In this document: positions 729-2,479 of the stretch, piece by piece
How the letters are laid out: every line of letters starts with the position of its first letter
How positions within the stretch are numbered: the first letter of the stretch is position 1
DNA from: Candidatus Desantisbacteria bacterium CG1_02_49_89
GTDB lineage: Bacteria > Desantisbacteria > UBA1551
Reading direction: 5' to 3'
DNA length: 7,153 bases
NCBI GenBank assembly: GCA_001871075.1
Contig: MNUP01000125.1
Location: 1 to 7,153, forward strand
The notes under the pieces: model-generated
Databases searched by the model: none
What the model was told of the DNA's origin: nothing
What the model saw: only the letters and a program-made list of their open reading frames with translations
Made by a program: the position numbers and the translations under genes

Positions 729-744
729 GGCAAAATGCCTTACC
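724..744 (+). other. Perfect 9-bp stem-loop spanning the epimerase stop codon
   Basis: GGTAAGGCA (724-732) is the exact reverse complement of TGCCTTACC (736-744), separated by the 3-base loop AAA. The stop codon TAA (726-728) lies in the 5' arm. An ATG at 735-737 straddles the loop and 3' arm, which argues against it being a real start. No T-run follows, so it is not a standard rho-independent terminator. It could protect the 3' end of the upstream mRNA or act as an attenuating structure; the role is inferred, the structure is seen directly. Confidence 0.7.
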
Positions 745-745
745 T

Positions 746-780
746 GATTACACAGATCAGGGTGCAGATTACACAGATTA
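746..780 (+). repeat. GATTACACAGAT direct repeat (two copies, 21-bp period)
   Basis: GATTACACAGAT occurs at 746-757 and again exactly at 767-778, with a diverged linker between. The end of the second copy, ACACAGATTA (771-780), is identical to the two tandem copies at 1627-1646 in the next spacer. The block is open in the reading frame of the downstream glycosyltransferase and would translate as ITQIRVQITQIKT, a repetitive string unlike any glycosyltransferase N-terminus, so I treat it as intergenic repeat DNA. Function unknown. Confidence 0.75.
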
Positions 781-806
781 AAACTAAAGAAGTTCAAGAT
801 GCCAAA

Positions 807-1511
807 ATGAAACCTGAATTTTCATTGGTTATCCCTTTTTATAACGAGGAGGAAAACGCGGAAAGGGTATGCCTTGAGATCGTTAACGAATTCGACAGCC
901 GCGAGCTGGACTACGAGCTTATCGCGGTCAATAACGGCTGCGCGGACAGGACCCCGGGCATCCTGCGCAGGCTTTCGGAAAAGCATTCCCGGATTAAAGT
1001 GGTGGACGTCGAAAAGAACCAGGGCTACGGTTTCGGCGTGATACAGGGTTTTCAGCACGCGCGGGGCGGTTACGTGGGTTACTCTACTGGGGACGGGCAG
1101 ATCTCCGCTTCGGATGTCTTCGGGGTTTTCAGCAGGATGAAGGAACAGGGCCTTGATTACGCCCAGGGTAAAAGGGTGCGCAAAGACACCTTCCTGCGCA
1201 GGCTCAACACAAAGGTCTTCAACTTCGTGTTCCACGCGTGTTTCCCGGCAAATGTCTATGACATAGGAAGCAATCCGAAAATAATGAAAAGGGGCATCTT
1301 CGAAAGGATCTCGCCGGTTTCCAAGGACTGGTTCATAGACGGCGAGATAATCCTGAAATCCTATCTTTTAAAAGGCAGGATGGACGAATTCCCGGTGGCT
1401 TTCAGGAAAAGGGAGAAGGGCAGGTCCCACATAAAACTTTCTTCCGTTTTTGAAATGCTGAAAAATATAGCCAGGTGGAAACTTAGAACTCTTTTCACAA
1501 AAGTAGTCTAA
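807..1511 (+). CDS. Family 2 glycosyltransferase, DPM1-like (polyprenyl-phosphate sugar synthase type)
   Basis: A 234-residue cytoplasmic GT-A fold glycosyltransferase, probably moving a sugar from a nucleotide donor to polyprenyl phosphate. The N-terminus FSLVIPFYNEEENAERV (5-21) is the classic GT2 opening. The nucleotide-binding loop reads VNNGCADRT (41-49) where most relatives have VDDGSxDxT, and the metal-site region reads STGDGQ (93-98) instead of DADLQ. NQGYGFGVIQGFQHARG (71-87), YDIGSNPKIMKR (151-162) and DWFIDGEIILKS (174-185) follow the DPM1-like layout. No C-terminal membrane helices are present, as in single-domain DPM1 enzymes. I chose ATG 807: an in-frame ATG at 735 would add 24 residues encoded by repeat DNA and starts inside a hairpin. 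No strong Shine-Dalgarno is visible before 807; only AAAGAAG about 14 bases upstream. The gene is followed by a 245-bp non-coding spacer, so it may be transcribed separately from the downstream genes. Acceptor and donor are unknown. Confidence 0.9.
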   Translation: MKPEFSLVIPFYNEEENAERVCLEIVNEFDSRELDYELIAVNNGCADRTPGILRRLSEKHSRIKVVDVEKNQGYGFGVIQGFQHARGGYVGYSTGDGQISASDVFGVFSRMKEQGLDYAQGKRVRKDTFLRRLNTKVFNFVFHACFPANVYDIGSNPKIMKRGIFERISPVSKDWFIDGEIILKSYLLKGRMDEFPVAFRKREKGRSHIKLSSVFEMLKNIARWKLRTLFTKVV

Positions 1512-1516
1512 GAAAC

Positions 1517-1540
1517 AGGTCAAGGCTCAAAGGTCAAAAC
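1517..1540 (+). repeat. AGGTCAA heptamer repeat block
   Basis: Three successive 7-bp units, AGGTCAA (1517-1523), GGCTCAA (1524-1530) and AGGTCAA (1531-1537), then AAC. The 13-mer CAAAGGTCAAAAC at 1528-1540 recurs exactly at 1574-1586 on the far side of the double hairpin. It is seen directly; function unknown. Confidence 0.7.
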
Positions 1541-1541
1541 T

Positions 1542-1574
1542 CCCGCCTCAACGGCGGGTCGCCGAAGTGGCGAC
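1542..1574 (+). repeat. Back-to-back pair of GC-rich hairpins flanked by 13-bp direct repeats
   Basis: Hairpin 1 has arms CCCGCC (1542-1547) and GGCGGG (1553-1558) with a 5-base loop. Hairpin 2 has arms GTCGCC (1558-1563) and GGCGAC (1569-1574) with the 5-base loop GAAGT. The two share base 1558. Direct copies of CAAAGGTCAAAAC lie immediately outside (1528-1540 and 1574-1586, the latter overlapping the last base of hairpin 2). No T-run follows on the + strand, so this is not a typical terminator for the glycosyltransferase upstream. The arrangement resembles a small palindromic intergenic element of the REP/MITE kind, but that identification is inference. Confidence 0.65.
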
Positions 1575-1602
1575 AAAGGTCAAAACGAAAACTTAAGATT
1601 TC

Positions 1603-1618
1603 CACGAAAGCACGAAAT
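1603..1618 (+). repeat. CACGAAA octamer repeat (two units)
   Basis: CACGAAAG (1603-1610) is followed directly by CACGAAAT (1611-1618), an 8-bp period. It is preceded by an imperfect palindrome centred on CTTAAG (1587-1602: GAAA and TTTC arms, with one A/A mismatch). Only two units, so weak alone; it counts as part of the mosaic. Confidence 0.5.
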
Positions 1619-1626
1619 AAAATTAG

Positions 1627-1656
1627 ACACAGATTAACACAGATTATCGCAGTTTA
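1627..1656 (+). repeat. ACACAGATTA decamer tandem repeat
   Basis: ACACAGATTA occurs twice in perfect tandem (1627-1636, 1637-1646), followed by a degenerate third unit TCGCAGTTTA (1647-1656). The same 10-mer is at 771-780 upstream of the DPM1-like gene, so copies in the same orientation bracket that gene. Function unknown. Confidence 0.7.
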
Positions 1657-1699
1657 AACTTTGTAAACTATATAAACTCTGTAAACTTTGTAAACTGTT
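1655..1699 (+). repeat. TAAACT nonamer tandem repeat (five units)
   Basis: TAAACT recurs at exact 9-bp steps starting at 1655, 1664, 1673, 1682 and 1691. The unit tails vary: TTG, ATA, CTG, TTG and GTT. A sixth partial unit, TAAAC, begins at 1701 with the spacing slipped to 10. The array begins within a perfect 10-bp palindrome AGTTTAAACT (1651-1660). This is the clearest periodic array in the window. It could be a protein-binding array or slippage-generated DNA; the sequence does not decide which. Confidence 0.8.
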
Positions 1700-1707
1700 T
1701 TAAACCC

Positions 1708-1735
1708 ATGACTCATGACAAATGACTAATGACTG
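1708..1735 (+). repeat. ATGAC heptamer tandem repeat (four units)
   Basis: ATGAC recurs at exact 7-bp steps at 1708, 1715, 1722 and 1729, giving units ATGACTC, ATGACAA, ATGACTA and ATGACTG. The first two units contain the palindrome CATGA-C-TCATG (1707-1717). The array ends 21 bases before the TTG start of the next gene, so it lies in or near that gene's 5' untranslated region or promoter. Confidence 0.75.
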
Positions 1736-1747
1736 TTTTTCAAGAGC

Positions 1748-1751
1748 GAGG
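1748..1751 (+). promoter_or_regulatory. Ribosome binding site supporting a TTG start
   Basis: GAGG lies five bases before the TTG at 1757. There is no in-frame ATG between the upstream in-frame TGA (1730-1732) and the conserved GT2 N-terminus, so this site decides the start of the ALG5-like gene. Confidence 0.55.
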
Positions 1752-1756
1752 TTATT

Positions 1757-2479
1757 TTGGGTTCTGTTAATCTTTCAGTGATAATCCCGGTTTACAACGA
1801 AAGCGACAGGATTTTGCCGGCTCTGGATAAAGTGGTCCCCTACCTGTCAGGAAAAGGGATCACCTGGGAGGTTATCATCGTAGATGACGGCAGCACGGAT
1901 AACACCGCGCAGCTTGTCGAAAAATACGCGGCAGGCAGCAGCGGAGTGAAACTGCTTGCGAACAGCCGCAACCGCGGCAAGGGCTGCGTCGTGCGCCAGG
2001 GCGTGCTCGCGTCAAGCGGCGAAAGGGTGCTGTTCACGGACGTGGACCTGTCCGCGCCGATAGAGGAAGCGGAAAAGCTTCTGTCCTGCCTTGATGAAGG
2101 CTATGACGTGGCGATCGGGTCCAGGGCCCTGAAAGAGTCGAACGCCAGCACAACATTTCTGAGGAAGTTCATAGGGCTGACGTTCAATTTCATAGTGCGC
2201 AAAATGCTCCTTCCCGGTATAGTGGACACGCAGTGCGGCTTCAAATGCTTTAAGGGTGACGTTGCAAGGGATCTTTTCAGCAGGCAGAAAACAGAAGGTT
2301 TCGGTTTTGACGTGGAAATACTGTGCCTCGCGGACATGGGCGGTTACAGGATGAAGCAGGTCCCCATAAACTGGTTTCAGTCGCCCTCAAGCAGGGTCAA
2401 TATATTCAGGGATTCCATACGCATGTTTTTTGAGATCCTGGAGATCCGTGGAAGGCTTAAAGATAGGAGGAAAGCATGA
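1757..2479 (+). CDS. Family 2 glycosyltransferase, ALG5-like (polyprenyl-phosphate glucosyltransferase type)
   Basis: A 240-residue GT-A glycosyltransferase close in pattern to dolichyl-phosphate beta-glucosyltransferase (ALG5), which moves a sugar from a nucleotide donor to a polyprenyl phosphate at the cytoplasmic membrane face. Motifs in order: LSVIIPVYNES (6-16), VDDGSTDNT (42-50), NRGKGCVVRQG (72-82), LFTDVDLSAPIEE (92-104, with the DxD metal site D95/D97), IGSRA (120-124), DTQCGFKCFKG (157-167) and GFGFDVEIL (181-189). The VPINW and SRVNIFRDSIRMFFEILEIR segments (202-231) are typical of the family C-terminus. It lacks the N-terminal membrane anchor of eukaryotic ALG5, as bacterial members often do. 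The TTG start follows a GAGG site by five bases. The stop overlaps the next start (ATGA), so translation is probably coupled to the SDR. It likely supplies lipid-linked sugar for the GT39-type enzyme further down. Glucose as the sugar is inferred only from family resemblance. Confidence 0.92.
   Translation: MGSVNLSVIIPVYNESDRILPALDKVVPYLSGKGITWEVIIVDDGSTDNTAQLVEKYAAGSSGVKLLANSRNRGKGCVVRQGVLASSGERVLFTDVDLSAPIEEAEKLLSCLDEGYDVAIGSRALKESNASTTFLRKFIGLTFNFIVRKMLLPGIVDTQCGFKCFKGDVARDLFSRQKTEGFGFDVEILCLADMGGYRMKQVPINWFQSPSSRVNIFRDSIRMFFEILEIRGRLKDRRKA
2465..2470 (+). promoter_or_regulatory. Strong Shine-Dalgarno AGGAGG for the SDR gene
   Basis: A perfect AGGAGG lies five bases before ATG 2476, inside the 3' end of the ALG5-like gene. 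Together with the ATGA overlap it fixes the start and suggests coupled, efficient translation. Confidence 0.8.

Follow-up and report, generated by a model that had tools for sequence, protein, structure and literature searches.

The nearest descriptions of what is reported here, among open-licence papers, are those of the Geobacter metallireducens elements and of the TAACTGA repeats, and earlier reports may exist. The accessible part of the Geobacter report describes multicopy elements, each made of 3-5 hepta- or octanucleotides in tandem, located in genes and in spacers and in some cases arranged as opposite-strand pairs, lists the consensus words GGGACCG, GTTGCTYN, TCTCCGTS and MTYCTGA, and interprets the elements as regulator sites or RNA elements (PMC2700814). 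The TAACTGA direct repeats of Beggiatoaceae are tandem heptamers that are abundant in spacers and patchily distributed across phyla; in the main species most of them share one orientation and lie immediately before a start codon, and up to 43 copies are found in some (PMC4679880). For the REP/REPIN elements of RAYTs, the occurrence of REPs within other palindromes and within genes has been reported (PMC3733652). A survey of prokaryotic satellites found transposed satellite families to be rare (PMC6749651).

The window, that is the whole stretch of DNA analysed here (7,153 nucleotides), makes up the entire contig C9 of a genome of 2.48 Mb in 150 contigs, whose phylum is represented in the genome set by the host and one other genome. 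The spacer at 1512-1756, between two codirectional glycosyltransferase family 2 genes, is best read as nested mobile-repeat debris akin to the STRR sequences of cyanobacteria, REPs and the Geobacter tandem-heptamer elements, and a clean member of none. Its features and its neighbours are as follows.

735..1511, + strand: glycosyltransferase family 2 gene before the spacer, which probably starts at 807
1517..1542, + strand: left part of the AAAGGTC/AAAACTC 7-bp array (Tandem Repeats Finder 1517-1538, period 7)
1543..1574, + strand: 32-bp double-hairpin element CCGCCTCAACGGCGGGTCGCCGAAGTGGCGAC (own-genome copies; fold)
1575..1584, + strand: AAAGGTCAAA, right part of the 7-bp array, which continues beyond the hairpin in the same phase as on the left
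1603..1617, + strand: CACGAAA pair, period 8 (101 own-genome matches)
1618..1627, + strand: linker TAAAATTAGA, recurring in the composite at L002, L003, L006 and L007
1628..1655, + strand: CACAGATT module, period 10, with TTAGA before it (Tandem Repeats Finder 1622-1657)
1655..1705, + strand: TAAACTnnn array, period 9, five units (Tandem Repeats Finder)
1708..1734, + strand: ATGACnn array, period 7, four units (Tandem Repeats Finder; 58 own-genome matches to the three-unit pattern)
1757..2479, + strand: downstream glycosyltransferase family 2 gene

A first-pass annotation of this DNA had described several different short-period arrays and a double hairpin within these 245 bp, and they are indeed present, both in the sequence and by Tandem Repeats Finder. 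At least three non-overlapping arrays occurred in 0 of 2000 dinucleotide shuffles of the 245 bp, and the summed array score of the spacer was 135, the best of 2000 such shuffles reaching 84. The five 9-bp steps of TAAACTnnn and the four 7-bp steps of ATGAC are as claimed, and the AGGTCAA-type 7-bp array resumes on the far side of the double hairpin, its flanks (1517-1542 and 1575-1584) giving 0.62 at lag 7 and 0.76 at lag 14 when rejoined without the hairpin. The CACGAAA unit is present as a pair only, and the 10-bp CACAGATT array has two good units followed by a degenerate third. An Rfam search gave no match, and the CACAGATT-TAAACT part has no stable fold (z 0.09). The locus of the spacer was not found in any relative compared. 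A degenerate CACAGATTA array lies at 746-780, in the spacer upstream of the first glycosyltransferase gene; the listed start of that ORF at 735 runs through it, so that the ATG at 807 is probably the true start.

A 501-bp piece around the spacer has 47 matches in its own genome, itself included, and parts of the spacer recur at dozens of own-genome loci, some in the same order. Sampled contigs totalling 545 kb were surveyed, the first 20 of them picked for hits and the next 20 not, and where it mattered densities were taken from the latter. The 307 sampled spacers of at least 60 bp (76.5 kb) contain 270 arrays, compared with 5-10 in shuffles, and 172 of them (56%) hold at least one. In the 545-kb sample, intergenic DNA has 37.7 arrays per 10 kb and ORFs have 2.6, the gene calls being crude ones based on long ORFs. 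The 20 contigs not picked for hits carry 127 arrays in 195 kb, which extrapolates to about 1,600 genome-wide. Period 7 is the commonest class in the sampled contigs, and periods 8, 9 and 10 are also common. For periods 7-10 and 14 the density per 10 kb is 4.6 in the own genome, 1.6 in a genome of the same order, 0.33 in one unrelated genome and 7.4 in another (G332), indicating that the phenomenon is genome-wide, stronger than in the one relative and not unique to the host. The odd spacer is one of hundreds of its kind in the host genome. The idea that the spacer collects repeats is borne out by the own-genome searches and by the sampled spacers, arrays being clearly abundant elsewhere in the host genome, and the likeness in kind to cyanobacterial STRR sequences, also proposed in the first-pass annotation, is supported, with units that recur genome-wide. 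Longer arrays of the GATTACRGTGATTATT type, 21-24 bp, were encountered at L012 17756-17836, L023 5936-6018 and other places.

Like STRR sequences, the host arrays include tandem heptanucleotide arrays dispersed in spacers; however, the host is not a cyanobacterium, its phylum having 2 genomes in the set, far fewer than Cyanobacteria would, and by description the present arrays differ in having several periods, a near-fixed unit number, and stacking and nesting with a hairpin. They share with the Geobacter elements a small fixed number of tandem 7-8-bp units both in and between genes, whereas the words differ, as judged by comparing descriptions with the accessible part of that report, and the same part describes neither a nested hairpin nor a cross-phylum word, both of which occur here (PMC2700814). 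With the TAACTGA repeats they have in common short tandem heptamers, abundance in spacers and a patchy distribution across phyla, but TAACTGA is a single word.

Arrays are also found in frame in the genes for CarB, LeuRS, ThiL and ProRS, where the alignment to solved homologues is poor or gapped and the exact boundaries are fuzzy. In the carB gene on C129 (L004), the double hairpin interrupts an AAAGGTC array in frame; this piece is nearly identical to the window copy, 57 of the first 60 bases being identical. The neighbouring carB, 54% identical in protein, has an array of this kind in the same loop, but without interruption, the two genes being paralogues rather than alleles. Such in-gene arrays are comparable to those reported for REPs and for Rickettsia elements (PMC3733652). 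The Rickettsia palindromic elements, likened here by description, are likewise small repeats inside protein genes, whereas the in-gene inserts of the host are tandem arrays with or without the hairpin. Where conserved genes of such genomes carry in-frame inserts, these may be mobile-repeat debris. In the two neighbouring diverged carB genes (L028 14888-18182 and L004, G000:C129), the arrays in the shared loop have different second words.

How such arrays arose may be judged from their unit numbers, their order and their distribution. Their short, imperfect tandem units with periods of 7-10 bp would suit local serial replication slippage, proposed in the first-pass annotation, by which each array was built in place and the shared words merely reflect sequence bias. 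Free slippage, however, should produce a tail of long arrays, and the order of arrays should not be constant. In the own genome, CACRGATT has 2-3 units and never 4 in 72 arrays, CACGAAA has 2 units in 35 of 35, AATTATG and the 8-bp GTATCAA word have 3-4 units each, and TAAACT has 4-5 units at most of its 38 loci; this near-fixed, capped number argues against slippage. Order is kept as well, since the composite CACGAAATAAAATTAGACACAGATT...TAAACT retains it at several own-genome loci, and one of the most frequent neighbour pairs consists of CACRGATT with TAAACT after it on the same strand (7 cases). Array words moreover recur at up to about 110 own-genome places with almost no matches to reversed patterns. 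Slippage is thus very improbable and already largely refuted. A fixed unit number with a period near or below one helical turn would also suit arrays that act as platforms for one or more regulators binding DNA or RNA; precedents for such platforms have been proposed, as far as the accessible parts of the reports go, among the Geobacter and Beggiatoaceae repeats (PMC2700814, PMC4679880), and arrays are commonest in codirectional spacers, a fraction of 0.66 of which hold arrays as against 0.31-0.39 of the others. By this analogy a regulatory role is conceivable but unlikely, as the words are many and different, occur in both orientations, balanced over the two strands of the own genome, and lie inside coding genes as well. 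The promoter binding platform envisaged in the first-pass annotation is unsupported, in view of the strand balance of the words and the presence of arrays in conserved coding genes, and because no plus-strand promoter-like site was found in the spacer at 1512-1756. The spacer looks like layered mobile-element debris and not like a promoter switch, and any effect of the repeats on neighbouring genes is probably incidental.

The double hairpin at 1543-1574 folds as two adjacent stems (z = -3.5). It has 50 own-genome copies, 26 forward and 24 reverse, as against none for the reversed control, a count from which diverged copies are missing because the stems were fixed in the search pattern; none were found in 115 other genomes. 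TC stands directly 5' of the hairpin in 45 of the 50 copies. When the hairpin is removed, the flanks are periodic at lag 7/8 (identity at least 0.55) at 22 of the 50 sites, compared with 14% of intergenic [GC]TC^A positions used as a control (p = 2e-5). The left and right flanks of one and the same site also agree across the junction better than flanks paired by shuffling; about half of the sites show no clear 7/8-bp periodicity. The words of the arrays that host the hairpin differ and include AAAGGTC, AAGTATC, CAGTGTC, ACTTTTC and others. The frequent adjacency to arrays, nearly always at the one phase marked by TC, could mean that hairpin and arrays form a single element, with arrays grown around the hairpin; this is improbable, because the same words are widespread without the hairpin, including at the paralogous carB site. 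Elements of the IS200/IS605 type insert on the 3' side of a short target, which is not duplicated. The TC flank and the partly restored periodicity agree with this behaviour as far as sequence can tell, and the simplest reading is that the hairpin would have inserted 3' of TC without target duplication, as such elements do. Around some of its copies (L313, L327, L333, L334) lie TAATCACNGTAATC flanks similar to the GATTACRGTGATTATT-type arrays.

It thus seems rather probable that the spacer consists of layers of debris from small dispersed repeat modules, and that the hairpin was later inserted into it 3' of TC. The dispersed modules would probably be mobile and non-autonomous, each tandem array corresponding to a module of about 15-50 bp in which the number of 7-10-bp units hardly varies. 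Copying may have involved single modules, composites whose order stays the same (CACGAAA - linker - CACAGATT - TAAACT), or inverted pairs able to form a hairpin. The 32-bp double hairpin, similar to a REP dimer, would then have entered an array directly 3' of the TC of a unit and without target duplication, in the manner of IS200/IS605 (Y1 tyrosine transposase) type elements. Placement by insertion is favoured over rearrangement in this reading; a Y1-type or similar enzyme may have moved the hairpin, whose arms would be its recognition sites.

The double hairpin resembles REPs, which are palindromes of 20-40 bp with many, often dimeric copies, in its length of 32 bp, its two hairpins and its copy number. 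It differs from them in that the element has no GTAG or CGTC end, its 5' flank being TC, in that no RAYT gene was found beside it in nine Y1 stretches, and in that its sites lie 3' of TC, in many cases within tandem arrays. Another repeat of the host, GTCATTGCGAG, has 55 copies in the 545-kb sample (L009-L048), often as inverted pairs, and resembles CGTC-tagged REPs. The own genome has 10 Y1_Tnp matches. Hairpin repeats of other kinds flank some of these genes, but the double hairpin was next to no Y1 gene in the nine stretches examined. Two stretches, L224 (G000:C23:300-5700) and L225 (G000:C111:6000-9500), contain Y1 transposase genes with tandem 25-60-bp hairpin repeats alongside (TCAGACCTGAAGGTCTGAGTTACG; CCCCAACAAGTTGGGG) and are probable RAYT/REP units. 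Y1_Tnp is present in 20 of 25 CACRGATT-rich genomes and in 28 of 50 genomes free of the word. As a required mover of CACRGATT it was rejected, since the three genomes richest in the word have none, and the arrays at least must therefore need another mover.

CACRGATT is common to Bacteria and Archaea. A search for its pair CACRGATTNACACRGATT that tolerated one mismatch gave hits in 51 of 386 genomes from many families (reversed control 2), and named genomes contain the exact three-unit form in at least 114 stretches; many of these genomes are metagenome-assembled, so that some taxon assignments may be wrong. The matches listed include the isolates Bacteroides xylanisolvens XB1A, Flavobacterium glaciei and Neolewinella agarilytica as well as Methanosarcinales/ANME archaea. 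Among these listed matches, exactly three units are found at 117 of 125 places, the bases upstream favour TTA[AG][CA], and an inverted partner lies within 300 bp at 53 places, at none of which (0/53) do identical 4-mer flanks point to a target-site duplication. The CACAGATT module of the window has the same TTAGA/TTAAC boundary and the same three-unit size as in other bacteria and archaea. It is possible, as a tentative proposal, that CACRGATT forms one arm of a hitherto undescribed family of hairpin elements. The arm would always have three units (TTA[AG][CA]-CACRGATT-NA-CACRGATT-NA-CACRGATT), in many cases accompanied by an inverted partner, and the family would be spread over many bacterial phyla and methanogenic/ANME archaea, the other arrays of the window being lineage-specific modules of the same design and landing pads for the TC-targeted 32-bp hairpin element. 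If the account given here is correct, a common design would tie together the short-tandem-repeat reports from Geobacter, Beggiatoaceae and cyanobacteria, a minimal element of 32 bp would be seen to follow a clear target rule, and a repeat word shared across domains would be available whose spread is testable.

Wide sharing of the other two words tested is unsupported: CACGAAA was found in 3 of 192 genomes, the own genome included, and ATGAC in 9 of 192, with reversed controls at similar frequency in both cases. The composite of the window, searched as a 24-mer, has no match in GTDB genomes other than its own. CACRGATT, CACGAAA and ATGAC, the three words tested, are all present in one unrelated genome, G087. 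Two further genomes match the reversed controls themselves: G344 has 64 matches to TTAGRCACANTTAGRCAC, apparently an independent word family, and G047 has 80 matches to CAGTANNCAGTANNCAGTA, another heptamer array family.
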